From NCBI GenBank assembly GCA_024636315.1, contig JAGXHJ010000066.1, positions 1 through 37,065 of the forward strand: 37,065 bases of DNA, in the 5' to 3' direction. Shown piece by piece: positions 1 through 19,721 of this stretch. How positions within the stretch are numbered: the stretch's first letter is position 1; the number at the start of each line of letters is the position of its first letter. Both the position numbers and the translations under genes were made by a program. This DNA comes from Methylophaga sp. GTDB lineage: Bacteria > Pseudomonadota > Gammaproteobacteria > Nitrosococcales > Methylophagaceae. The notes beneath the pieces are model-generated. The model made no database searches and had not been told where the DNA came from. It saw nothing but the letters and a program-made list of their open reading frames with translations.

Positions 1-289
1 GCGGATTGCTCTACAGAGCAATGTGCAAGTCGACATGGACGCAGGACGGCTGGTGAATTATTAACCGTCACGTACTCCTCAGCAAAAAGGGCGACTTGGA
101 TGTCCCGTTTTTGTATCCTGGGGATCGTGACTCGCTTGTGTGGATGGAATTTATCAAGGTGACGATGCAAAAGTAAGTGCACTTAGTCGGTGGTTAGATT
201 ATTTTGATAACGGGTATATGGAAACTGGATATAGAAAAGATGATTCGAAAAATTTATACGTCTCCATGTTAAAAAACATTGTTCATTAG
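1..289 (+). other. Decayed coding remnant, unidentified
   Basis: No intact gene is visible. The frame from about 131 to the TAG at 287-289 encodes a protein-like stretch (ending ...YVSMLKNIVH) with no good start codon. A second + frame stays open to about 180 and contains FLYPGDRDSLVWMEF, so the region may be one gene broken by a frameshift. A perfect 7-bp hairpin with a TACA loop lies at 5-22. I do not recognise the family. This is either the 3' end of a gene that begins outside the window or a decayed gene; it could also be chance. Confidence 0.25.
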
Positions 290-1017
290 GCTTTGGCGTT
301 TGCCAGTGGCAAGTTTACCTTCAAAATATGAATGTAGCGTAGATTTCAGCTATTCACCACTTAAAGTTAACTTCCTTTAAATGTTGGCTAAATATATTCT
401 AGCTCAAAGATGAGTCATTGGAATTTGCTGAGAATTAGATCTTTCAGAATTTAAATGTAATTTATGATTCACTTAAGCTGTATGGTGAAATGTAAATTTC
501 GTATTGTTTATCGTATATCTAAAAACCAATACTTAAGTTACATGCCATCATAGAATGTGAAAAAAACGATGCTTTTTAAATATGAAACAAATGCTGTTTC
601 CCCATAAACTTTACTAAAAAACACGCTTAAGACTATTGTGAGTCAAAGTTCTCACGCTTGACGCAATTCTCATCCTTAATGATTTTCGACACGCACCGAT
701 GCCATGCTTTTTACACCTACATATTAGTTCGCATAATGTATATTATGTTAAATAGAATAATAAAGAGTAAATACACACTCTCGGGTGTGATTATTCATTA
801 AGATCTGGAATTTAATTCATACGCTGGAATTACTGGAAGTAAGCACTGACACCACTTTGATAAAATCGGTGTCAGTAAACTTAGTTCGAAAAGGCTTTTT
901 TTGTCACGGATTAAAATCGGAACAACCTAGAGCCTAATGTATCCAAAATTTAAAATAAGAAGATGTTTTACCTGCACTGATAGACAGAATTTACAATTTG
1001 AATGTGAAACTTTGTAA
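290..1017. other. AT-rich non-coding stretch with a hairpin at 846-877
   Basis: No reading frame of convincing length or composition is seen on either strand. The only clear structure is a perfect 9-bp inverted repeat: ACTGACACC at 846-854 pairs with GGTGTCAGT at 869-877 around a 14-nt loop. A T-run follows about 20 nt later (897-903) on the + strand, too far for a classical intrinsic terminator. The hairpin lies beyond the end of dinG, which is read leftwards, so it could help end that transcript. Confidence 0.5.
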
Positions 1018-3165
1018 TTACACTACCTTGCCATGAACACCCTCTTCTTGAGCAGTGAGATCAACATTTCGTAGCACGCGATAATTAGGCAAATGGTGTA
1101 ATAACGTTTCGCCATATTGCTTTACCTGCAAACGCTTATCCATCACTGTAATTCTGCCCTGATCAGTTTCGCGGCGAAGTAATCTTCCACACGACTGAAT
1201 AAGGCGAATACTTGCCATAGGTAATGACAAATTAAAAAAGGGATTTAAACCTCGCTGTTTAAACCACGCCTGCTTTTCTCTGTCTACAGGCCGATGAAAT
1301 GTAGGGAAAGGAATACGCGTGATAATCACATGGGTGCAATAATCACCGGGTAAATCGACACCTTCCGCAAACCTATCCATACCAAAAATGACACTTCCCT
1401 CACCTGCTTGTATGCGTGCTTTATGTTTATCCACCATTTTTTGTGGTGACAAGTCCGCATCTTGCAACAAAATGCGTGCTTTCATTAATGGACTCAACTG
1501 CTGATAAACGGTATTCATCACAACCTTAGACGTAAACAACACTAACGTGCCTTCCTTTTCAGCTATTGCATGTGGCAATGCGGTCACCAATTCATTCAAC
1601 CACGCCTGAGCACTGTCCGAACTTGGTTCAAATCGCATCGCTGCCAAACGTAATGTCGCCTGCTGGTAATACTTAAATGGTGACGAAACAGCGTGAAAAT
1701 CAGCGGCACTAATCCCCTGTAAACCGCAGTCATCCTTGAAGCGTGCAAATGAGCCTAAGCCCTTTAGGGTTGCCGACGTCAATACCGCCCCAGACACCTT
1801 ATTCCAAAGCTTTTTTGCTAAAAATGACGATGCCACCATAGGGCTTGCATGTAGTTCTAGGCAAGAAGGTACGCTATGAGCAGAAAATGACAACCAACGG
1901 ACATTAGGGACTTGCTCATCATTACCCACAGCTAAATATAGCCCAATACACTCAGAAACTTGTTGAAAAGTACCCAGCAAACCACCCACTATGATAAAAA
2001 AACGCTCGCCCACATCCCGAGAGATGCTTTTTGTATCGACGGCCTCTTTCAACCACATAGCAAAGACATTCAATCGTTTCCTGATCAAATCGAGACTTGC
2101 CCATAACGCCTCAATCATCGGCATTAACATCGTCAACAAAGGTGATTTCCAAGCAATAATAGGCTCTTGCTGATGTTCAGAAGACAACTGTTTAACACAA
2201 TCTTGCACCATTAATACCGCTTCAAGATTGATAAAACAATCAATAAGCTGATCTAACTCGTTATTCGACAAATTGACCAAATCAGATACTTCTGCACCAC
2301 GGTGTTTTAACAATACAGGTAATCGTTTAAACACTGTATCAGCTTGCTCACACGCCTTTTTCACATCGGAAAAATTCAATTTTCTAGCAGAATGCTCTAA
2401 GGCCTTTTTAGGTAAGGCATGTGCCTCATCAATGACATGAACCACCTCTTTCATCGCAGGCAATAATACACCGCCACCTAAGGTAGCATCGCACAATACC
2501 ACGTCATGATTAGCCACAATGAGTTGCGCGCCGATTTGTCTGCGCTTCATATTAAAAAAAGGGCAGGTTGCATAATCGGCACAACTTTTAGCCAAACAGC
2601 TATCAGAATCAGTAGAAAGTTTAGCCCATAATGCCCTCGACACATTATCGGGCCAATTGTCGCGGTCGCCATCCCACTCACCACTTACTAATGCTTTACG
2701 CATAGCAGCTAGCGCCAATTCATCCTGAACATGATGAATGGCCACCACCTTTTCTAAGGGTAATATCGCCTGAGTTTTATTACCCGCTGACTGATTAAGT
2801 TTTGTCACACACACATACCGACCACGGCCCTTAGCAATGGCATAATGTAATGGATGGCCTAAGGCCTTGACCAGCATCGGCAAATCATTATTGATTAATT
2901 GAGATTGAAGATTAGTTGTCGCAGTACTCACCACAACGACCTTATTGTCTTTTAACGCCTGCGATAAAACACCTACTAAATAAGCCAATGTTTTACCCAC
3001 CCCAGTGGGTGCGTCAATCACAATAACACGCTCATCCATACGATTTGGATCAAGTTTATGCGCGATTAAATTGGCCATTTCTAGCTGCTGAGGGCGAGTA
3101 ACAAAGCCGGTCACCTGTTGCTCTAATCCAACAAACATAGCCTCAACTGTTTTTATGACAGTCAT
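1018..3165 (-). CDS. dinG: ATP-dependent DNA helicase DinG (XPD-like, iron-sulfur)
   Basis: Superfamily 2 5'-to-3' DNA helicase that unwinds forked DNA, D-loops and R-loops during repair. The 715-aa product matches the length of E. coli DinG (716 aa). Visible motifs in order: Walker A APTGVGKT at about residues 52-59; four cysteines C119, C190, C195 and C201 with the spacing of the DinG/XPD 4Fe-4S cluster; DEAH at 246-249; VLTSATL; and C-terminal motif VI-like QSCGRLLRR. Translation starts at an ATG with no strong ribosome site; an internal ATG (residue 10) is possible. The gene is transcribed away from the CRISPR array. In E. coli dinG lies next to ybiB; here a ybiB/trpD2 homologue lies about 7 kb away on the same strand, with the accessory island in between. 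No obvious LexA box was found upstream. Confidence 0.95.
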   Translation of the reverse strand: MTVIKTVEAMFVGLEQQVTGFVTRPQQLEMANLIAHKLDPNRMDERVIVIDAPTGVGKTLAYLVGVLSQALKDNKVVVVSTATTNLQSQLINNDLPMLVKALGHPLHYAIAKGRGRYVCVTKLNQSAGNKTQAILPLEKVVAIHHVQDELALAAMRKALVSGEWDGDRDNWPDNVSRALWAKLSTDSDSCLAKSCADYATCPFFNMKRRQIGAQLIVANHDVVLCDATLGGGVLLPAMKEVVHVIDEAHALPKKALEHSARKLNFSDVKKACEQADTVFKRLPVLLKHRGAEVSDLVNLSNNELDQLIDCFINLEAVLMVQDCVKQLSSEHQQEPIIAWKSPLLTMLMPMIEALWASLDLIRKRLNVFAMWLKEAVDTKSISRDVGERFFIIVGGLLGTFQQVSECIGLYLAVGNDEQVPNVRWLSFSAHSVPSCLELHASPMVASSFLAKKLWNKVSGAVLTSATLKGLGSFARFKDDCGLQGISAADFHAVSSPFKYYQQATLRLAAMRFEPSSDSAQAWLNELVTALPHAIAEKEGTLVLFTSKVVMNTVYQQLSPLMKARILLQDADLSPQKMVDKHKARIQAGEGSVIFGMDRFAEGVDLPGDYCTHVIITRIPFPTFHRPVDREKQAWFKQRGLNPFFNLSLPMASIRLIQSCGRLLRRETDQGRITVMDKRLQVKQYGETLLHHLPNYRVLRNVDLTAQEEGVHGKVV

Positions 3166-3362
3166 GGCTAGCTTTCAGCCTGTAACGTTAATAATGCTAG
3201 ATCATCAGCCGTCAATGGACATAAAAAAGACCACTGACCGTATGCATTTAACACAGGAGAATTGAATAAATACACCATTTGATAAACCGCCAATCACTAA
3301 AAGAGTGAGGCCATTACAGCATGGTAGAAACAAAAAGTCGGGCTTGACAACCTTGTCGTCAA

Positions 3363-4021
3363 ATCAAAATCCCTACTGTTTTAGGGCGTGGTTCTGACTG
3401 TATCAACTCATGGTAAGGAGTCAGCCATGTAGTCTTAATCCCTACTGTTTTAGGGCGTGGTTCTGACAGAATCCCCTGCTCAGTCACTGGCACTACATGA
3501 GTCTTAATCCCTACTGTTTTAGGGCGTGGTTCTGACCTATACTAAACGCTTTCGTAGCTGATACCAATAAGTCTTAATCCCTACTGTTTTAGGGCGTGGT
3601 TCTGACTCTGGATTGAGCAAGCCAACAATCTGGTAAAATCGTCTTAATCCCTACTGTTTTAGGGCGTGGTTCTGACGGTCACGCGATAGATTGTGGAACA
3701 AGTCCTCTTGTCTTAATCCCTACTGTTTTAGGGCGTGGTTCTGACTCATGTCTCAGGTGACGGCGATCCGACTAAACCGTCTTAATCCCTACTGTTTTAG
3801 GGCGTGGTTCTGACTCGGTTAACTCCGTTTACTTCTGACGATATTCCAGTCTTAATCCCTACTGTTTTAGGGCGTGGTTCTGACCCATCACAGCCCTTGG
3901 CATAGGGGTGGAAGGCGTCTTAATCCCTACTGTTTTAGGGCGTGGTTCTGACGCTGTATCCTACTGTAACTCAACAACTATCTTCGTCTTAATCCCTACT
4001 GTTTTAGGGCGTGGTTCTGAC
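3363..4021 (-). CRISPR. Orphan CRISPR array: 10 repeats, 9 spacers
   Basis: Ten 36-bp direct repeats start at 3363, 3432, 3501, 3571, 3641, 3710, 3779, 3849, 3917 and 3986, separated by nine unrelated spacers of 32-34 bp. Repeats 2-10 are identical by eye. The first (3363-3398) differs at three of its first five bases, as expected of a leader-distal repeat. Read on the - strand, each repeat begins GTCAGAACC, forms a 5-bp hairpin (CCCTA/TAGGG, 6-nt loop) and ends with the 8 nt ATTAAGAC. That is the layout of Cas6-processed class 1 repeats with an 8-nt 5' handle. Transcription is therefore inferred leftwards, with the leader expected to the right of 4021; a truncated helicase gene abuts the last repeat there instead. 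No cas gene lies in the window. Subtype is undetermined; type III or a type I variant is plausible. Confidence 0.97.
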
Positions 4022-4780
4022 ATGAGCTTCATCAACAATAACGCAATCGAGAAGAGATGATTCAACACTCTGCTCCTCGAGAAATAGTGCTAATTTAGCA
4101 GCCCCTGTATTGAGTTCATTGTCACGATCATCCCAACCACGAGGTGGCCTTATACCTTGCATGGAACAAATAATGGCAAAGTTACGATTACTTCTTGCGG
4201 TGGAGTCTTTTAGTCGCACTAAAAGTTCATGAGCATTACATAGCTCGGCATTCACACCAAATCTAGTTATAAGCTCATCTTTCCATTTCTGACACAACAT
4301 GGCAGGACATACGATAAGTAATCTGCCAGCATCAAACCTAGCTTTTAATTCTGTCCATATTAGTCCAGCTTCTATTGTTTTACCTAAACCCACTTCATCT
4401 GCAATGAGAATTCCCTGAGAAGGTGAATCTAGAAAATTGAGAACGGGTTTAAATTGATAAGGAAGAAACTCGGTATTAGTGGCTTCCATGGAGTAAATAA
4501 CATCTGCCAATCTTCCTGATAATCGAGCATGTGTCAGTAATGACCGCATGTTGTGAAGACGACCATATTTCTTAAGTTCTAACAAACTCTCTATGGTCTC
4601 AACATCAACTAGTTCAAGTTCACTCACCAGTTTGAATTCTTTACCTGGATTAAAGTCTAATTGTAGCCTTACCCTGTCTGCACGAGACATACTCTCGCCC
4701 GTTAAAATCCCTGTCCGGTCTGGGGCCGATTTTAACCTGACCCGTTGACCCGCTTTAAATTTATCTGCATCATTATCCAT
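4004..4780 (-). pseudogene. SNF2/RapA-like helicase, truncated at the DEAH box by the CRISPR array
   Basis: N-terminal part of an SNF2-family (superfamily 2) DNA-dependent ATPase. Residues about 6-57 look like a small SH3/Tudor-type barrel (FKAGQRVRLKSAP...). Then come a Q-like motif (FLPYQFKPV), Walker A in ADEVGLGKT at 127-135, motif Ia (LIVCPAMLCQKWKDEL) and Walker B/motif II VIVDEAH ending at residue 253. Native sequence stops at this His codon (4022-4024). The next five codons (VRTTP) and the stop are read from the CRISPR repeat. The rest of the ATPase core, including the whole second RecA lobe, is missing and is not found left of the array. The start ATG has a good ribosome site (AGGGAAG). 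Related helicases occur in DISARM- and Dpd-type defence systems, but subfamily cannot be fixed from this fragment. It should be inactive as an ATPase; its promoter may still read into the array. Confidence 0.85.
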
Positions 4781-4881
4781 TTATACTTCCCTATATAAAA
4801 ATAGTCTTCCCGCAGTGGTGAATGATATGTAACTTTTAACTATAGTAACCCATCTGAATAGATGGTAAGGCAAGCCTAATC

Positions 4882-5478
4882 TCAAAGTACATATCTGTCA
4901 TCAATGTCAATCATTGTGCTTATTCCAAAATACTCACGATCATGCATGTGTTCTCGACATAATAATTTGGAACGTTGAATGGCTTCTTGAGCACCTTGTA
5001 ACGAAAAACCTAAAACATAGTTTTTTTCATTGACGGCTATTTTTATGCGTAACCTTTCACCGTGAAGAATTTCAGTTAATATTTGTTCCTGGTCATCAAA
5101 TTCGATGAATTCGATAAAAATATAACTTTCATTTTCTTCAAATGAGATTTGGTACTGAACATCATGTGTTACAGAGTTATCAATCCTTAACTGTCCGTTC
5201 ATTCGCTCAGACTCTAACGCTGATGGTGCGGTACTAACATTCATCACGGTAAATGAAAGATCCCATTCATTACAATCATTTGCTGTCCGAGCAACATATA
5301 AGACGACCTCACCATACTCACCCGAATGTTCCGTCAGTGCAACAAAGGTATCTTGCTGATCATAGATCAAGCCAGAGGTCCACTGTTGATGGTTCATGTC
5401 TTCTTCTGATGCCAAAACTAATGATCCTGACAATGTCATCAGAAAAACAGAAAGTAGCGTTAAATGCCTATTTAACAT
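4882..5478 (-). CDS. Hypothetical exported protein
   Basis: A 198-aa protein of unknown function. The N-terminus is a typical Sec signal peptide: basic start, hydrophobic core LTLLSVFLMTLSGSLV and a likely cleavage site after VLA (about residue 23), before the acidic SEEDMN. The mature part has no further hydrophobic segment, so a periplasmic or secreted location is inferred. It is rich in acidic and beta-prone stretches and has a C-terminal cysteine (...SKLLCREHMHD) plus one near residue 69. Its start codon overlaps the end of the upstream gene by 7 nt, so the two are probably translationally coupled. I recognise no family. It lies in the accessory island between the truncated helicase and the WYL fragment. 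Confidence 0.75.
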   Translation of the reverse strand: MLNRHLTLLSVFLMTLSGSLVLASEEDMNHQQWTSGLIYDQQDTFVALTEHSGEYGEVVLYVARTANDCNEWDLSFTVMNVSTAPSALESERMNGQLRIDNSVTHDVQYQISFEENESYIFIEFIEFDDQEQILTEILHGERLRIKIAVNEKNYVLGFSLQGAQEAIQRSKLLCREHMHDREYFGISTMIDIDDRYVL

Positions 5479-6311
5479 AAACGCATTAATTCTATTTCAA
5501 ATAGGTTATGCTCGTTTGGACAAAAGAATCGACCGTTAATTGTTCCGAGTGGATATGGATCGACATCTTCTCTTAGTTGTTGACCAGTATATTTTTCCTG
5601 ACATTTTTTACAAAGTACTACACCTTTCTTTTGTTCAAGAATCTGATAGGAAATGTATTGAAACTTGTCTCCCCATTGCTTAGGAACGTATGTGTCATGG
5701 TTTAGTGATGCATCGACTGCTTGTACCCAAGGTAAAATCTCACTTGGTTTATAAAATTCATCGCTACCATGTTTCAGTTCATGCTCTTGATGCTCTTGAA
5801 CTTCATTTTCCAAATAGTGTTCGACATCTTCCGACTTGAGTAAGATTTCACCGCAGCAGCTAAATCTATTATCCGTCGGAATAAATCGAATAATTGGGCT
5901 ACATATAGGTACAGGATCAGGTCGATTACGCTCTTCTATTTCAGCTTGCCACTTAGCATCCTCATCTTCTAATGCTTGCTGCTTTCCATGTATATATTTT
6001 TGTAAGGCTACCCCTGATAATGAATAAGAAACACCCGGCTGATCAAATGAAGGTTCTTTGCACGGAAGTATGGTTAAGATTTCAGCGGCATCTGATGTTC
6101 TTGTTACTCGAAAGGGTTTTCCACACAGTTCAATATCACAGATCCTATGCGTAGCAAGGTAAGGTTTTTTCATCGTTTCTATAAACCATTCATCACTTAG
6201 CTCATAATTAGGATCGAAGTCTTCCGGAATATATTCTTCAACCACCTTCAATAATGTCGCTTGTTCTGAATTTTGTAAGAAATTTTCCCATGCTATTTTT
6301 AACTCATCCAT
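5472..6311 (-). CDS. Hypothetical protein with a C-terminal zinc-ribbon-like motif
   Basis: A 279-aa, strongly acidic, probably cytoplasmic protein of unknown function; there is no signal peptide or membrane segment. The C-terminal third carries LCKKCQEKYTG followed about 33 residues later by FCPNEHNLFE, a CxxC...CxxxH arrangement that could bind zinc. A further CC pair occurs near the middle (FSCCGEI). A charged helical segment (GKQQALEDEDAKWQAEIEE) sits around residue 110-130. The ATG is preceded by an AAGGGA/AGG-type ribosome site. The gene overlaps the following exported-protein gene by 7 nt, so the pair forms an operon. Its location in a defence-like island is the only functional hint. 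Confidence 0.75.
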   Translation of the reverse strand: MDELKIAWENFLQNSEQATLLKVVEEYIPEDFDPNYELSDEWFIETMKKPYLATHRICDIELCGKPFRVTRTSDAAEILTILPCKEPSFDQPGVSYSLSGVALQKYIHGKQQALEDEDAKWQAEIEERNRPDPVPICSPIIRFIPTDNRFSCCGEILLKSEDVEHYLENEVQEHQEHELKHGSDEFYKPSEILPWVQAVDASLNHDTYVPKQWGDKFQYISYQILEQKKGVVLCKKCQEKYTGQQLREDVDPYPLGTINGRFFCPNEHNLFEIELMRLC

Positions 6312-6672
6312 TTGCCTGTTCCCTTGAAGTATTTATCCAATAAATATAACTATAATCAGCCGTTGAACTGTATTTTTACCTCCAACCAGTCCATTAAGAA
6401 ACAATCTTACCAGTGAAGTATATTTGACTTCAATTGCCGATGCGTGGTAAGGGAGGGTTTTTCGGTAAAATTTAACTCTATAGCCGAAATGCTAATGGTG
6501 ATGCCAACTAACTTTTCCGTGGTTCTGCAAGACGGACATCAAAACTGTTACAGGCTAGCGGCATCATAGATACTTTGCTTCTGATTTTATTGGTATGTAG
6601 TTTTATGGCTGGGAAATATTATGCTAAAACTGCCAACTTTCTTATGCTGTTCAACATGGTAACTATTGGACG
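6312..6672. other. Non-coding stretch with a nested inverted repeat at 6406-6451
   Basis: No gene is seen. The region separates the leftward two-gene operon from the rightward WYL fragment, so it should contain the operon's promoter. Two nested inverted repeats share an arrangement: outer CTTACC (6406-6411) with GGTAAG (6446-6451), and inner TGAAGT (6414-6419) with ACTTCA (6427-6432). This could be a cruciform, an operator or a leftover mobile-element end. The last part (about 6628-6672) reads in frame into the WYL fragment and looks like eroded WYL coding sequence. Confidence 0.4.
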
Positions 6673-6984
6673 ATGAATTACACCCAAGGGCTATGCCCTT
6701 ACAAGCTTATTAACAATAAAGGTATTTGGTATCTTGTGGCACTGGATGATGAGAACATTGAAATATTCTCATTCACTACAATCAGTCATTTTCAAGTTAG
6801 TCAGTCTAATTTCATCCCTGATGATAAACTCAGCAAACTGATAGTTGACGATAACAGTGTTTGGTTCAGTACAAACAAATATAAAATCGTGCTCAGTATT
6901 TCTAAAGAAGTGGCTGACTATTTTTACAGAAGGACACTGATTGCCAACCAAGCAATTGAAAAGAGCTTGAGGACGGAAGCTTAA
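6673..6984 (+). CDS. WYL-domain fragment (regulator missing its N-terminus)
   Basis: A 103-aa product containing the WYL signature: LCPYKLINNKGIWYLVALDDENIEIFSF resembles the conserved P-Y-L...G-WYL-A-D core of WYL ligand-sensing domains. Intact WYL regulators carry an N-terminal DNA-binding HTH domain, absent here. The frame is open upstream from 6628 and reads SYAVQHGNYWTMNY, which also looks WYL-like, so the annotated ATG lies inside the ancestral domain. There is no convincing ribosome site. I judge it a 5'-truncated remnant, though a stand-alone WYL protein is possible. WYL regulators commonly control phage-defence loci, and this one lies 171 bp upstream of the TerB membrane cassette on the same strand. 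Confidence 0.7.
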   Translation: MNYTQGLCPYKLINNKGIWYLVALDDENIEIFSFTTISHFQVSQSNFIPDDKLSKLIVDDNSVWFSTNKYKIVLSISKEVADYFYRRTLIANQAIEKSLRTEA

Positions 6985-7155
6985 ACATTTCAACAGAAAT
7001 TAGTGATAACCACCAGTTATTGCCTATAATCAAATATTAGCTCCCATATATCCAAATTATCAGTCCTAAAGCATTACAAGATGAAATTAACCAAGAACTA
7101 AAAAATAATTGACCTAAAATTTTAACGAAGACAAAACTAAACAAGGAAATAGTTG

Positions 7156-7629
7156 ATGAAGATATCAGGCGTAGATCCAAAAACAGGCAAAATATTCCAA
7201 AAAGAGGCGGCAGGTATCAATGGTAATTTCATTACGGCAATGTCTGAGCTTGAACTTTCAGAAGCCGGCGTTAAGAAATTAATTGATAATCTAGATATTT
7301 CCGCAGATGCAAAATCAATACTGCACAGCCTTTCATCGATTACTATTCGGGCGGGGGAATTCATAATAAAAATTGGCAGAAAGATTATTGATTTTATTTG
7401 CTCTATTTTTAGGGATTTTCCAACCGCTACTTTTGGGATAGTGTTTGGAAGCATTGTTGGTTTCCTCATTTCCTCAATCCCTGTTCTTGGCATTATTTTA
7501 GGCCCGATTGTTACCCCCATTTTAATATCCCTAGGTTTGCTCGCTGGTGTATACGAAGATATTAAAGATAAAAATCTCTCTAGGAAAATAGCTGAAATAA
7601 ATGCTAAATTCTCAGCTCTTAACAGCTAG
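7156..7629 (+). CDS. Small membrane protein, first gene of the TerB cassette
   Basis: A 157-aa protein of unknown function. The first 90 residues are soluble and amphipathic (SELELSEAGVKKLIDNLD...). They are followed by a continuous glycine- and proline-broken hydrophobic hairpin at about residues 91-131 (two membrane passes, GIVFGSIVGFLISS and PVLGIILGPIVTPILISLG) and a short charged C-terminal helix. I chose the ATG at 7156, 8 nt after AAGGA, over the TTG just before it. The next gene starts 11 nt after this stop, so they are co-transcribed. The compact hydrophobic hairpin recalls pore-forming or holin-like proteins, but that is shape only; no family is recognised. Confidence 0.8.
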   Translation: MKISGVDPKTGKIFQKEAAGINGNFITAMSELELSEAGVKKLIDNLDISADAKSILHSLSSITIRAGEFIIKIGRKIIDFICSIFRDFPTATFGIVFGSIVGFLISSIPVLGIILGPIVTPILISLGLLAGVYEDIKDKNLSRKIAEINAKFSALNS

Positions 7630-7640
7630 GACATATACTG

Positions 7641-8495
7641 ATGGAAGATAACGCTAAAGACCGCCTAGAAAACATCGAAGAAGTCATTACTGAGCCATTA
7701 AAATTTAAAGCTAAGCTGTGCATTGGTGAAGATGCTTATACATCATTAAGACTAAAGAATGCTGCTTTTGAAGCGTGGGATACCTTTGGTGCTGGAGCAA
7801 CCGCTGTAGGTCTTGCTCAATCTTCTGCTGTTGCATCTACCTTTTTTGCCCCATCAGGACTTTTGGCTGCGCTAGGGTTTGGAGCCGCCGTAACGCCTAT
7901 TGGTTGGGTTGTTGCAGCTGGAGTATTAACTAGTAGTGCATGGTATGGAGTTACACGTCTTACCAAAAATACTACCTCAAGCCGCGTTACTGTAATTCCG
8001 AATTTCATCAACACCCCTATGGATGTCTTGGCACTAGGGCTTTTTGATCTAATGGTGCCCTTAGCCCTAAAGGTTGCTGATGTCGATGGGCATATTCATG
8101 AATCAGAAAGAGACTTAATTAATACATACTTTGTCAAAGAATGGGGCTACCACCATACCTTTGTTGAGGAGGGTCTTAAATATATTGAAGGGAACCTGTC
8201 TACATTTTCAATCAAAGAATTAGCTCAAACACTTGCCGAATTCAAAAAAAATAATCCTGATTGCAACTACGAACCAATGTCACAAGAAATACTGAGCTTG
8301 CTTACCCAGATCATGGAAGTAGATGGCAGAATTGATGAACGTGAAGAAATGGCAATAGAAAGGGTTCGCAGTATTTTTAAAGAAACAAATAAAGTTTCAC
8401 TATCACAAACAATTGAGGCAATGAAAGGTCGCTGGAACTCCGCTAAAGGCACTGTAGGCAGAATCATTCCCGACACCATCCTCCCAAAAAAGTGA
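7641..8495 (+). CDS. TerB-domain membrane protein
   Basis: A 284-aa protein with two parts. Residues about 50-105 form one or two membrane passes very rich in Gly and Ala (GAGATAVGLAQSSAVAS..., GLLAALGFGAAVTPIGWVVAAG). Residues about 130-240 look like a TerB/DjlA-type all-helical domain with two copies of the characteristic acidic metal-binding-like motif: VADVDGHIHESERDLI (about 145-160) and IMEVDGRIDEREEMAIERV (about 214-232). TerB domains are known from tellurite-resistance and phage-stress loci and often sit at membranes. The start ATG follows AGGA by about 10 nt. It is the middle gene of a tight three-gene cassette flanked by two other small membrane proteins. Substrate and activity are unknown. 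The domain call is good; the system is not one I can name. Confidence 0.8.
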   Translation: MEDNAKDRLENIEEVITEPLKFKAKLCIGEDAYTSLRLKNAAFEAWDTFGAGATAVGLAQSSAVASTFFAPSGLLAALGFGAAVTPIGWVVAAGVLTSSAWYGVTRLTKNTTSSRVTVIPNFINTPMDVLALGLFDLMVPLALKVADVDGHIHESERDLINTYFVKEWGYHHTFVEEGLKYIEGNLSTFSIKELAQTLAEFKKNNPDCNYEPMSQEILSLLTQIMEVDGRIDEREEMAIERVRSIFKETNKVSLSQTIEAMKGRWNSAKGTVGRIIPDTILPKK

Positions 8496-8518
8496 AATTA
8501 ATAATTAGGAGATAAAAG

Positions 8519-8962
8519 ATGCTCGAGAAATCAACATTATTTCTTTCTAGCGTTCTGGATGTTGCATCTAAAGAGCACAACAATTTAAAAGCCATATTAA
8601 AGTCGTTATGGAGTCATCCAATCAAATTAGCATCTGCGTTTGTTGTTGCTCCTTTTCTGGTTTTTCGAATAGCCCAAGTAGCTAATAATCCTGTTCGCAG
8701 ATGGGTTGCGAGCATCGGGCTTTTCATTGCAATTATTCTGGCATATGTGGCGGGAACATTTTTAGGTACTTTTGCAGGAGCACTAATTGTTATGAGTAGT
8801 GTTGGCTTACTTGCTGGAGTGGGCTTTTTGATAGGAACAACATTCAGTGTGTTTTTCAGTTTTATATTTGCAATAGTGGTCTTGAATTCTGTTTCTTTCT
8901 TTTTCTTAAAGGTAAATACTCAAGAAGTCATAGACTATCTCGATGAGATTTCTAACGAATAA
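8519..8962 (+). CDS. Small polytopic membrane protein, third gene of the TerB cassette
   Basis: A 147-aa protein that is mostly hydrophobic. After a 35-residue soluble N-terminus there are about four predicted membrane segments, roughly 36-54, 63-84, 86-108 and 109-130. Glycine-rich runs (GTFLGTFAGALI, VGLLAGVGFLIG) precede a short acidic tail (QEVIDYLDEISNE). A strong ribosome site (AGGAG) sits 7 nt before the ATG, and the gap from the TerB gene is 23 nt, so it belongs to the same operon. The family is unknown. The conserved arrangement suggests it forms a membrane complex with the two preceding products, which is inference. Confidence 0.8.
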   Translation: MLEKSTLFLSSVLDVASKEHNNLKAILKSLWSHPIKLASAFVVAPFLVFRIAQVANNPVRRWVASIGLFIAIILAYVAGTFLGTFAGALIVMSSVGLLAGVGFLIGTTFSVFFSFIFAIVVLNSVSFFFLKVNTQEVIDYLDEISNE

Positions 8963-8987
8963 GTTATAAAAGGAAGGGATATATCTC

Positions 8988-9018
8988 GCTGTCATTATTA
9001 ACAGCAGGTGTTTTTTTT
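8988..9018 (+). terminator. Possible terminator of the TerB cassette
   Basis: A weak hairpin (GCTGT at 8988-8992 with ACAGC at 9001-9005, 8-nt loop) is followed five bases later by eight T residues (9011-9018). It lies 26 nt after the last cassette gene. The stem is short, so efficiency is uncertain. Confidence 0.45.
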
Positions 9019-9401
9019 CATTGAGAGCCCTCGTTCTCATTATCTATTAAGTAATGCAAATATTCGATGTGACCAATATAGAATTCTGTCCAGCATAAAG
9101 TTCTTAAGCTAGCGAGTTACTATGATTTACTTAACGAACGCTCTCAGAGGGCTTGTACTGGCTTTATTTGCAATTTAGGTACATACTCTTCATCAATAAC
9201 TAATTGATATTAAATTAATTTCTAAAAAATCCGGCCGTAAAAGAATATTTCAATAAATTCTGGCATTTAGTGCCTAACTTTTAGCTAAAATATTCCATCG
9301 GTTAGTGATAACCAATTGATTTTTAACAGTTCTAAAATCTTACTTTAAATGCATTTTCACAGGTATTTACTGATAAGTCTAGATTTGGATTTGAGGCCTA
9401 C
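9019..9401. other. Non-coding gap at the right border of the accessory island
   Basis: No gene, RNA or clear promoter was identified between the TerB cassette and the convergent yjbQ. The sequence is AT-rich. The 13-mer TTAGTGATAACCA at 9302-9314 also occurs at 7000-7012, so it brackets the cassette; a chance match of this size is not rare in 37 kb. Confidence 0.5.
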
Positions 9402-9818
9402 TTATTCACCTTGGATGGTGATAATCACGCGTCGATGATATTTATGCGTACGATGTTCCCACAAGTAGATACCTTGCCAGATACCCAAACTGCATTGACC
9501 AGCACTGACTGGTACGGTCAAATCGGGATTAGTTAACACGGTTCTGATGTGTGCACTCATATCATCTGGGCCTTCATCTTGATGTAAAAACATGGCATCG
9601 CCGTCAGGCACAATATGTTGCATATAGGTTTCAAGATCACGCCGAACATCAGGATCTGCATTCTCACATAACATAATAGATGCGCTGGTATGTTGTACAA
9701 AGATATGACAAGTTCCAATTCTGATTCCTGATTGAGCGACCAGATTTTGAATTTCAGATGTAATATCGGTGGTACTTCGTCCAGGTGTTGAAATGACGAT
9801 CTCTTGCTGAAAAACCAT
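9402..9818 (-). CDS. yjbQ: YjbQ family (UPF0047) protein
   Basis: A 138-aa member of the widespread YjbQ/UPF0047 family, small trimeric proteins sometimes annotated as secondary thiamine-phosphate synthase. Family landmarks are visible: FVQHTSASIMLCENADPDV near residues 40-58, HQDEGPDDMSAHIRTVL near 79-95, and C-terminal GTWQGIYLWEHR-like LGIWQGIYLWEHRTH. The conserved His and Glu/Asp residues expected to bind metal are present. The ATG overlaps the stop of trpD2 by one base (TAATG), so translation is coupled. It is the last gene of the zipA-ligA-trpD2-yjbQ operon. The physiological role of the family is not firmly established. Confidence 0.92.
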   Translation of the reverse strand: MVFQQEIVISTPGRSTTDITSEIQNLVAQSGIRIGTCHIFVQHTSASIMLCENADPDVRRDLETYMQHIVPDGDAMFLHQDEGPDDMSAHIRTVLTNPDLTVPVSAGQCSLGIWQGIYLWEHRTHKYHRRVIITIQGE

Positions 9819-10867
9819 TATTTGAGTCCTCGTTCAAAACGAGCTTTAGCTTGTCCTGATCTAATAACTTGGCGAACATGATCGGCGGCTTGTTTAGGTG
9901 TTGCTTGTAATTCACAGTGCCATAATGTCATGGCGGCGCCATAAACTAAGCTATCAAATGCCGGACCTGCTTTTCCAGATAATGCATCCAATCCTAATTC
10001 GACAGTATGTTTGGCTGTTACTGTCTGATCTAATTCTGGTAAAACACCACGCGTTGTTTGTTCTATACCATACTCTGTAGGATCCATTACGCAGGTTTCA
10101 ACATTATCTTTCCAGGCGCGGAAACAATTTGCTGATTCTCGCAAAGTAGGCAACACCCCTCCTTCTAAACCCCTGATAACTAAGGCAGAATGGAAACCAA
10201 CTTGTTGTGCTAACCACGCTAACACGTTGGGATAGGCCTTATGAACAAAACCTATTTGTAGGTGTGTACGCCCTTTTGCTTTAATCGGCATGACTAACTT
10301 TTCTAATGCCGCCAGACTGGGGCGTTTTATCATTTTAGTACGTAAATCTTCTAAGGCGTATAAGGCTGGTGTGGCATGTTGTTGATCGATATAAGACCAG
10401 CCTAGATCAGGATTATTCACCCTTTCGGTAGCTGCTTGAACTGAAAGGTCTACATTCATGCCCGCTTCTGCTAATACTTGTGAATGTGTTACCCCGAATT
10501 TTGGGCCCATTTCTTTTACGCCTTGCGATACTGTTGGCAATCCCGATGCGGCTAGAACGGCAGGTAGAAAGGCGGTAACGGGACAATGTCGGTTATAACC
10601 ATTATAAGGTTCAGATAGAATTAGTAGATTATCAACGTCAGCTTGGCATTGTGCAGTGGATGCTTGCAGGGCTTGTAAAATGCCTAAGTTTTCATCGTTT
10701 GTTTCAGTTTTCATACGTAAAGCAATAAAGAATATTGCAGCTCGTACAGGATCGGCATTGCCAGATAAGATTTCTAACATCGCTAAATTGGCTTCTTCAA
10801 TTGAGAGATCTTTGCTCAAATGAGGGCCTGTGGCGACTTTTTTAATGGCTTCAGCCAATGCTGTCAT
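9818..10867 (-). CDS. ybiB: TrpD2/YbiB, anthranilate phosphoribosyltransferase-like protein
   Basis: A 349-aa homologue of the glycosyltransferase family 3 / TrpD2 (E. coli YbiB) group. It has the TrpD fold (N-terminal helical domain LSIEEANLAMLEILSGNADPVRAAIFFIALRMKTET; phosphoribosyl-binding region around VTAFLPAVLAASGLPTVSQGV) but lacks the canonical KHGNR motif of true TrpD. At the corresponding place it has PYNGYNRHCPVTAF. YbiB-type proteins bind nucleic acid rather than making tryptophan intermediates. It follows ligA by 11 nt and overlaps yjbQ by one base. A ribosome site (AGGAA) precedes the ATG by about 10 nt. In E. coli ybiB is adjacent to the SOS helicase gene dinG, consistent with an ancestral link to the dinG across the island. 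Confidence 0.88.
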   Translation of the reverse strand: MTALAEAIKKVATGPHLSKDLSIEEANLAMLEILSGNADPVRAAIFFIALRMKTETNDENLGILQALQASTAQCQADVDNLLILSEPYNGYNRHCPVTAFLPAVLAASGLPTVSQGVKEMGPKFGVTHSQVLAEAGMNVDLSVQAATERVNNPDLGWSYIDQQHATPALYALEDLRTKMIKRPSLAALEKLVMPIKAKGRTHLQIGFVHKAYPNVLAWLAQQVGFHSALVIRGLEGGVLPTLRESANCFRAWKDNVETCVMDPTEYGIEQTTRGVLPELDQTVTAKHTVELGLDALSGKAGPAFDSLVYGAAMTLWHCELQATPKQAADHVRQVIRSGQAKARFERGLK

Positions 10868-10878
10868 AATATATATTC

Positions 10879-13801
<2,923 letters not shown>

Positions 13802-13866
13802 TTATTGTGGAACCTCTGTATCAACTAAGGGATAATGGTTGTTTTTTACATATGATGAGCATTTTC

Positions 13867-14256
13867 ATGACCACACAACCAAGCAAACAATTGGAAACCT
13901 TCGACAACGCAATGCCGGAGCGTGATTATACCATTCACATCGAGACACCAGAATTTACTTGTTTGTGTCCTAAAACAGGTCAACCTGACTTTGCGACCAT
14001 TAAGATTGACTACGTACCTGATTTAAAGTGTGTTGAATTAAAGGCTTACAAGCTTTACTTATGGTCTTACCGTAACGAAGGTGCCTTCCACGAAAAAGTA
14101 ACTAATCAAATTTTAGATGACTTAGTAGCGATTTGTGATCCACGATTTATGCGTATTACCGGTGTTTTTAATGTTCGTGGCGGTGTTTACACAACGGTTG
14201 TTGCTGAACATCGTAAAGCGGGTTGGGTTGCACCAACACCTGTTCAACTTCCATAA
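13867..14256 (+). CDS. queF: NADPH-dependent 7-cyano-7-deazaguanine reductase QueF (unimodular)
   Basis: Reduces preQ0 to preQ1 in queuosine biosynthesis using NADPH. The 129-aa product from the ATG at 13867 is the short, Bacillus-type form rather than the two-domain form of E. coli. The active-site Cys34 (in [13 protein letters not shown]) and Asp41 have the family's seven-residue spacing, and the QueF motif appears as [20 protein letters not shown]. In-frame starts at 13852 or 13855 (ATG) or 13807 (GTG) are possible. I chose 13867 because [12 protein letters not shown] is the usual N-terminus of this family. No preQ1 riboswitch is evident in the short leader. It lies 18 nt before the sugar kinase gene. 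Confidence 0.93.
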
Positions 14257-14274
14257 GCTAACAAGATAAGCGTT

Positions 14275-15555
14275 ATGAATAATAACGCCTACATTGGTAT
14301 TGATCTCGGCACCTCAGGGTGTCGAGCCATTGCCATAGATGATCATTCAAACATTATCACTAGCAGTCGCTTAGCTTTTCAAGCACCTCATTCCAATAAT
14401 ACTTCTGAACAAGACCCGAGTTATCACTGGCAATGTGTGAAAAAAGTGTTAATTGATCTCATTCCTGAGTGTCAGCACTATGAAATTCGAAGCATTGCTG
14501 TTGATGCCACTTCTGGCTCGATATTAATCACCGACGCGCTCGGTAATCCGCAAACACCACTGTTAATGTATAACGATGCTCGCGCTGTTGAACAAGCAAA
14601 GTTGATTGCTGATATTGCTCCAGCACAATCTGGGGCTCATGGTGCGACTAGTGGTTTAGCTAAATTAGTCTATTTACAACAGCATAATGTCCTAGCCCAA
14701 TCCCCAAATAATCATTTATTACATCAAGCAGATTGGATTAATTTCCGTCTTGGCGCGCCTTTAGGCATAAGCGATGAAAATAATGCACTCAAAACAGGCT
14801 ACGATCCGGTTCAACGCTGCTGGCCAAATTGGCTTGATTTCATCACCAATCGAGCTGTTTTACCGAAAGTTGTGCCGCCGGGAGCCATTATTGGGCTTTT
14901 ATCTGATGATTTATGTAAGCAATTAAACTTAACATCCCCACCCAAAATCGTTGCAGGTACAACCGATAGTATTGCCGCATTATTGGCCACTGGAGCTAAT
15001 GAAATAGGCGATGCTGTGACCTCGTTGGGCTCAACACTGGTTGTTAAATTGATCAGCGATACACCGATTTTTTTACCTGAGCAAGGAATTTATAGCCACC
15101 GTTTAGCTGATAAATGGTTAGTCGGCGGCGCATCAAATACCGGCGGAGCCGTATTAAATGAATTCTTTAATAATGAACAATTACAAGTTCTTAGCAGTTT
15201 AATCTCAATAAATAATCAGGTTCCTGATTACTATCCTTTATTAACTAAAGGTGAACGTTTTCCAATCTGTGATCCTGAGTTGGCCCCTAGGCTATCACCC
15301 CGCCCTAATCGTGATGTTGAGTTTTTACATGGCATGTTGGCCGGTATGGCAAAAATTGAACAACAAGCTTATCAAAAGCTAGAAGACGCTGGGGCTTCAT
15401 CAGTAAAATCAATAAGAACAGTCGGCGGCGGTGCCGTTAATCTAGTTTGGCAAGCACTCCGTCAGCAACATATACTCTTACCTTTCATTTCAGCTGAACA
15501 TACAGAAGCTGCTTTTGGTGCGGCATGTTTAGCTAAAAATGCCATGGCCAATTAA
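14275..15555 (+). CDS. FGGY-family carbohydrate kinase (ribulokinase/xylulokinase-like)
   Basis: ATP-dependent sugar kinase of 426 aa with the two-lobed actin-like FGGY fold. The N-terminal phosphate-binding loop is YIGIDLGTSGCRAI (Asp10). The probable catalytic base is Asp231 in VAGTTDSIAALLATG, followed by the second nucleotide-binding loop (VTSLGSTLVVK). It is shorter than classical xylulokinase (about 480 aa) and resembles the compact group containing the cyanobacterial/plant D-ribulose kinases (SePSK type), so a ketopentose substrate is plausible but unproven. Spacing suggests co-transcription with queF and, 25 nt downstream, cysZ. Confidence 0.85.
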   Translation: MNNNAYIGIDLGTSGCRAIAIDDHSNIITSSRLAFQAPHSNNTSEQDPSYHWQCVKKVLIDLIPECQHYEIRSIAVDATSGSILITDALGNPQTPLLMYNDARAVEQAKLIADIAPAQSGAHGATSGLAKLVYLQQHNVLAQSPNNHLLHQADWINFRLGAPLGISDENNALKTGYDPVQRCWPNWLDFITNRAVLPKVVPPGAIIGLLSDDLCKQLNLTSPPKIVAGTTDSIAALLATGANEIGDAVTSLGSTLVVKLISDTPIFLPEQGIYSHRLADKWLVGGASNTGGAVLNEFFNNEQLQVLSSLISINNQVPDYYPLLTKGERFPICDPELAPRLSPRPNRDVEFLHGMLAGMAKIEQQAYQKLEDAGASSVKSIRTVGGGAVNLVWQALRQQHILLPFISAEHTEAAFGAACLAKNAMAN

Positions 15556-15580
15556 TCTAATTTTAAAGTAAGAGTTTTTT

Positions 15581-19721
<4,141 letters not shown>

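Follow-up and report, generated by a model that had tools for sequence, protein, structure and literature searches.

A CRISPR array joined at its repeat edge to a truncated SNF2-family helicase gene in a Methylophaga draft genome

Orphan (cas-less) CRISPR arrays have been reported, plasmids included, and have been interpreted as possible remnants (PMC9071438; PMC8616872). The array described here, in a 37,065 nt stretch of DNA from Methylophaga sp. (the window, which is contig C94 of a 113-contig, 2.36-Mb assembly that is 88% complete), is of this type in that it has canonical repeats and no cas genes either adjacent to it or found in the assembly. It differs in that the interior of a coding sequence replaces the leader end, with the join at the repeat edge. 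Two types of rearrangement are also relevant. First, bacterial spacers are reported to recombine with their phage targets (Watson 2018 and Varble 2019, as cited in PMC8616872), and we infer that such events would give joins at repeat-spacer borders; those reports concern phage targets and transduction, whereas here a helicase gene of defence type would be the partner and a scar fixed in the chromosome would be the product. Second, large deletions that follow self-targeting remove the target region, parts of the array or the cas genes, and in the available part of that report their joins lie between insertion sequences, similar genes, microhomologies or CRISPR repeats (PMC6990116), in contrast to the gene-repeat edge seen here.

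The neighbouring genes recall two further systems. The best profile match of the truncated helicase (the stub) is to DrmD of DISARM (PADLOC), and NCBIfam DrmD gives 146 bits with a cut-off of 610, a score that is for a fragment. Unlike in DISARM no drmA, drmB or drmC gene was seen near the stub, and five of the six intact relatives of the helicase precede a protein of about 600 aa. Eight of the nine ORFs of at least 80 aa in the surrounding island were scanned against PADLOC, and none is a drmA, drmB or drmC gene; among the matches listed (for the stub, 25 of 31 families) none is to DrmB or DrmC, and the sole DrmA-model match is the helicase domain of the stub itself (68 bits). Type IV CRISPR genes were sought in the same eight of nine ORFs of at least 80 aa, with no match to csf1-3, and the DinG helicase of the island falls short of the Csf4 model (91 bits, cut-off 400) while passing the ordinary DinG model PRK11747. 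Against the call as an ordinary DinG, PADLOC names this protein typeIV_DinG (best 371 bits), in a search that was run without cut-offs and had no ordinary DinG model among its matches. The best reading of the array-helicase join is an unusual scar in a decaying defence island and not a new system. A natural gene-to-repeat fusion of this kind was not found in the literature searched, which excludes most subscription journals.

The array and its junction with the helicase gene

The repeat (GTCTTAATCCCTACTGTTTTAGGGCGTGGTTCTGAC, or GTCAGAACCACGCCCTAAAACAGTAGGGATTAAGAC when read on the minus strand) is 36 nt long and is present in the window as nine exact copies and one copy with three mismatches. 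The near-identical direct repeats, together with nine unique spacers of similar length, identify the locus as a CRISPR array (Table 1). A search of the literature with the repeat as a string returned unrelated papers only. The degenerate copy is at the left end of the array, and a degenerate terminal repeat marks the trailer end. Each of the nine perfect repeats matches Rfam CRISPR-DR32 on the minus strand, albeit weakly (19.8 bits with a gathering score of 48, E 2.4), these being nine of the 15 matches at E values up to 10 in the subtype search of the window, all 15 of them below the gathering score. From the one degenerate repeat and this sub-threshold match, the left end should be the trailer and the helicase side the leader end. 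The minus-strand repeat folds into a stem of 5 bp with an 8-nt tail behind it (−6.2 kcal/mol, z −1.5), a stem and 8-nt tail being the usual layout of class 1 repeats; the fold is equalled by 18 of 200 shuffles, the plus strand folds about equally well (−6.7, z −0.7), and folding by itself leaves the array direction undecided. With the degenerate repeat at the left, a leader is therefore expected to the right of 4021, where helicase coding sequence stands. No leader adjoins the first repeat: the sequence is that of the helicase gene from the first base on, and the first 150 nt to the right of the array are 57% AT, compared with 61% in the left flank.

Table 1. Features of the window and positions of the helicase module in related loci
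Feature	Position	Strand	Details
dif-like chromosome dimer resolution site	726..753	+	native left flank of island; 2 mismatches to E. coli dif consensus
Foreign island, 8,590 nt	781..9370		blastn against G006, in which 13 nt separate the matching flanks
Second, diverged DinG helicase (715 aa)	1018..3165	-	NCBIfam PRK11747 645 bits, cut-off 598; beyond the trailer end of the array
CRISPR array	3363..4021	- (proposed crRNA sense)	10 repeats of 36 nt, 9 spacers of 32-34 nt
Degenerate terminal repeat	3363..3398	-	3 mismatches, all in the last five bases (minus-strand reading)
Helicase-frame readthrough into first repeat	4004..4021	-	VRTTP then stop
Junction	4021..4022		last base of repeat / third base of His codon of DEAH
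SNF2-family helicase, first 253 codons	4022..4780	-	PADLOC DrmD model PDLC02623, 270 bits over 4-248 of 1040
Helicase and downstream-protein module	L035 586-5434; L036 842-5937; L080 10243-15194; L097 7998-12871; L098 7995-12963

At the junction, the rightmost perfect repeat (3986-4021) abuts codon 253, the His of DEAH (4022-4024), with no extra base between them. The minus-strand ORF at 4004-4780 reads MDNDAD...DCVIVDEAH and then VRTTP-stop, where V onward is repeat sequence, and translation from the stub would stop five codons into the repeat. Past DEAH all six intact homologues compared read Y/H-L/M-R-N where the window reads into the repeat; three of them (L035, 1032 aa; L036, 1061 aa; L080, 1032 aa) continue with YLRN, HLRN and YMRN, and three plasmid homologues (L097, 1037 aa; L098, 1061 aa; L099, 1041 aa) with HLRN, HMRN and YLRN. 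Since the third base of the His codon (4022; T or C) is synonymous, the break can be placed at the repeat edge with a precision of ~1 nt. An earlier note on this DNA had described a CRISPR array fused to a helicase gene exactly after its DEAH box, and this proves correct to the base, coordinates included, with homology to the intact proteins ending at the H. Its account of a clean junction is likewise borne out: there is no partial repeat to the right of the array and no leader, and 4022 onward is helicase coding sequence. The same note had reported the remainder of the helicase missing past the array, and we find it neither in the window nor, in a search with the full-length DrmD profile, as any other part in the 113-contig, 88%-complete assembly.

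About three quarters of the helicase length has been lost; the stub that is left also matches Pfam SNF2-rel_dom. One candidate for the missing 3′ half, a DrmD-profile match at 4385-4726 of contig C89 beside a truncated transposase, was rejected, as its protein is of a different SNF2 family (best PDLC02619, 244 bits, compared with 107 for PDLC02623). The remaining nine DrmD-profile matches outside C94 are to SNF2 or helicase domains and score at most 64 bits. We looked in the window and in C89 for the protein that is normally encoded downstream of the helicase and did not find it; setting aside a 29-residue match (E 0.019), no match in the window is better than E 0.78. Promoter-like matches in the interval 3100-5000 are no more frequent than by chance (4 found, 4.5 expected). 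The helicase promoter could still transcribe the array, since the helicase sense is the proposed crRNA strand. The remaining array is probably inert because no Cas protein was found.

Setting of the island and searches for the repeat, cas genes and targets

The segments 727-780 and 9371-13911 match a genome of the same genus (G006, L071 4598-4545 and 4531-1) by blastn, and the gap that corresponds to the island is 13 nt in this genome and 51 nt in a second one, G005. From these alignments, 781-9370 is an insertion between dif and a block of genes that we take to be yjbQ, ybiB and ligA. Both relatives have a dif-like site at the corresponding position, with 2 mismatches in G006 and 1 mismatch in G005. 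A contaminant contig, suggested by the diverged DinG, was ruled out; the contig is native because ligA (10879-12912) is 95% identical to that of G006 and 90% to that of G005. Window positions 1-726 gave no blastn match to the stretches of relatives that were fetched, and positions 1-16000 gave none to E. coli genomes.

The position beside dif is variable: the window carries an island of 8.6 kb there, G006 has 13 nt and G005 has 51 nt. In G006 there is also a second dif-like word, with 5 mismatches, ~70 nt from its dif. Xer insertion at dif was considered for the island and is not supported, as ~27 nt separate dif from the start of the island, and no other dif-like word in the window has fewer than 9 mismatches. 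Neither is there support for mobile-element ends, for which the candidates were a 25-nt word at two places in C89 and a loosely similar word to the left of the array.

Several other genes lie within the island. The DinG helicase is 44% identical to the genus-type DinG encoded on contig C78 of the same assembly; near full-length matches to the DinG proteins of the genus are at 41-46%, and a split piece in genome G017 is at 60% over 123 residues. There are 314 plasmid records with a match to it, and the 12 listed are at 31-34% identity. A 103-aa ORF at 6673-6984 has a WYL domain (Pfam 23.3 bits, cut-off 21.8; also the PADLOC CRISPR-associated WYL model) and is too short for the usual DNA-binding part; it may be a remnant of a defence regulator. 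At 7153-8962 there are three consecutive small ORFs, of which the middle one has a TerB domain (32.1 bits, cut-off 24.4) and the two on either side have no Pfam or PADLOC matches and are hydrophobic by eye.

The earlier note had proposed a search of the genome for a second array with the same repeat, and allowing up to 3 mismatches there is no further copy of the repeat in the 88%-complete assembly. The Cas families sought were Cas1, the RAMP superfamily and the Cas3 core, and the assembly, with ~12% of the genome missing, gave no match for Cas1, none for the RAMP superfamily and six for the Cas3 core, none of them over the cut-off. Among 59 genomes the repeat is in one, its own, and absent from the 58 relatives; with a relaxed pattern it is again in its own genome only among 369 genomes of the class, and absent from the 368 others. 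Searches with a 25-nt core, a 21-nt core or the whole array found it in none of the collections of genome contigs, viral contigs, phages and plasmids, which may omit records very near the window's own genome.

The existing spacers were also searched. In the assembly, at E 0.001, they match the array alone, with no sign of self-targeting; the whole array with its nine spacers has no match at E 1 in phage and plasmid records; and five of the nine spacers, as 20-21-nt exact words, found nothing in viral contigs. No PAM is derivable because no target was found for any existing spacer.

Origin of the join

We think it likely that the array is a leader-stripped remnant in a decaying defence island by dif, and that a deletion or crossover fused it to the remaining 5′ part of an SNF2 helicase gene of plasmid type. 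Of the origins suggested in the earlier note, a deletion between an ancestral leader and cas region and the helicase gene fits best, agreeing with the orphan array, the shortened helicase and the correct flanks; the loss of a cas region is the part that is presumed. More tentatively, we favour an origin of the join through a lost, newer spacer that had been copied from the helicase gene. The array would once have borne this one additional spacer, identical to the helicase gene for 32-34 bp and in the same orientation, and a crossover or deletion through that identity would leave helicase sequence unbroken to the repeat edge. The next repeat, the leader, any cas genes and the rest of the helicase would be lost in that event. 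Had Cas proteins of the array targeted the helicase, such a deletion or crossover would have been selected for, although both the past cas genes and the order of events are inferred. If this hypothetical spacer was 33 nt long, its end would be at 4054 and CATCT would flank it 5′.

The spacer route is preferred because it needs only ordinary recombination and selection and explains both the exact edge and the direct orientation. As expected for spacer-target recombination, the join coincides exactly with a repeat-spacer border and the target gene runs on from there, and the helicase sense and the proposed crRNA sense are on the same strand, which is the direct orientation that a deletion needs. 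The helicase is a plausible source for a spacer because its family travels on plasmids. Escape from self-targeting by deletion of the target, array or cas genes is described in PMC6990116. Against the spacer route, a spacer matching the helicase was found in no genome or collection searched, the join was singled out for its exact look, and the sequence is an incomplete draft assembly that comes without reads. Furthermore, ordinary deletions are surely commoner than spacer-target recombination, and a random break, if uniform along the repeat-spacer unit, falls exactly at a repeat start in 1 of 69 cases and within 1 nt of it in 3 of 69. An exact repeat edge arises by construction from three processes, namely spacer recombination, bridging by an assembler and the Cas1-Cas2 reaction.

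The interest of the join is in its base-exact edge, and this depends on reads confirming the junction. If the join is real and came about through a matching spacer, it would preserve, in a natural chromosome, the trace of a spacer-target recombination. CRISPR memory would then have reshaped the genome by serving as a short homology arm, destroying its own leader and cas genes and pruning a neighbouring defence gene. The signature, an array edge running base-exactly into a gene, could be counted across genomes, and a laboratory observation would become a measurable process.

Chance deletion and a short-word assembly join are both serious rivals. In the first, which we regard as possible although on the unlikely side, ordinary deletion or end joining linked the leader (or array) region to the helicase as the island decayed, and by chance ended at the repeat edge. 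The island does hold fragments (the helicase stub and the 103-aa WYL-domain piece), orphan arrays are read as possible remnants of decaying systems in PMC9071438, and the last 100 nt of the helicase share no word of 8 nt or longer with the array on the same strand, which is compatible with simple end joining. What this explanation needs is a coincidence, at the frequencies given above for a random break.

The second rival, an assembly artefact, seems unlikely to us. A short-word assembler could have bridged an array spacer and the helicase gene through their 32-34 bp of identity, or a chimeric read could have done so, and the join sits exactly at the expected start of a spacer in a draft of 113 contigs that is 88% complete and was analysed without reads. 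The array side and the helicase side are, however, each joined to the correct outer chromosomal flank, and a join of two unrelated loci, one form of the assembly join raised in the earlier note, is unlikely for this reason; a shortcut inside one larger island is the form that could still apply. An assembler that took such a shortcut would have passed over the rest of the helicase, further repeats, Cas1, RAMPs and Cas3, and these were not found on the other contigs of the assembly, from which ~12% of the genome is missing. Should the join be of this kind it would serve as a warning, as a spacer identical to any sequence in the same sample can make false fusions.

The third process is improbable. 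Here Cas1-Cas2 would have joined an end of helicase-gene DNA, in place of a trimmed prespacer, to the leader-repeat border, with repair of the half-site product fusing it to the repeat. Prespacers are short and trimmed, which counts against such a join, and no Cas1 was found in the assembly nor a natural example in the literature searched. The polarity of the fused strand, with the helicase 3′ end on the repeat 5′ end, would fit the reaction, and a type II-A integrase reacts first at the leader-repeat junction and gives half-site products in vitro (PMC6895254). On this reading Cas1-Cas2 would have worked as a rearrangement enzyme on a break inside the helicase gene, in the chromosome or in an incoming plasmid, and the base-exact fusion would have placed the array under the helicase promoter.

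Off-target spacer integration that seeded a new array within the helicase gene, also raised in the earlier note, is very improbable and was not supported: such integration by Cas1-Cas2 duplicates the target's own sequence and hence cannot alone give nine identical repeats, and here the nine foreign repeats, and the degenerate copy that closes the array, are all on one side, the repeat is unlike the six homologous helicase loci (best 15-17 mismatches of 36), and no helicase sequence is present past the other side of the array. In its favour, integration into array-free DNA, a control plasmid, occurs in vitro (PMC6895254).

Relatives of the helicase and a second defence-type locus

The stub is 59% identical to L035 (142 of 239 residues), 50% to L036 (121 of 243) and 51% to L080 (123 of 240). 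Matches to it are present in 40 of the 59 genomes (its own and relatives), but apart from the window's own none exceeds 44% identity and each covers part of the stub; they include a second match in its own genome. At E 1e-40 it is matched in two of the 369 genomes of the class, one being its own. Relatives of the helicase are carried by plasmids, two of them typed as conjugative (pSF1 and pAA03). It is not a common phage gene, because only six phage records have a match, two of which cover at least 80% of the stub at 31-32% identity; in viral contigs there are 38 stretches with the pattern, none of which was confirmed.

We note a broken defence-type locus elsewhere in the assembly (L031, contig C89, 3254-8887). 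A transposase remnant, presumably IS21-like, abuts the C-terminal half of another SNF2 helicase, followed by genes that we take to be HipB/HipA-like and then the N-terminal part of a type III methyltransferase. Two copies of a 25-nt word, with 2 differences between them, lie at 4370 and 8863 of C89.

The gene that follows the helicase in five of the six intact homologues encodes a protein of 587-637 aa, and all pairs among these five proteins match each other; the L035 copy is cut by the contig end, and L099 has a transposase next instead. There is a recurrent two-gene module, with an SNF2-type helicase of ~1030-1060 aa and directly after it the 587-637-aa protein, on a closed chromosome, two draft contigs and two conjugative plasmids. 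It is possibly an undescribed defence module, and one of the downstream proteins has a below-cut-off FtsA/MreB-like signal.
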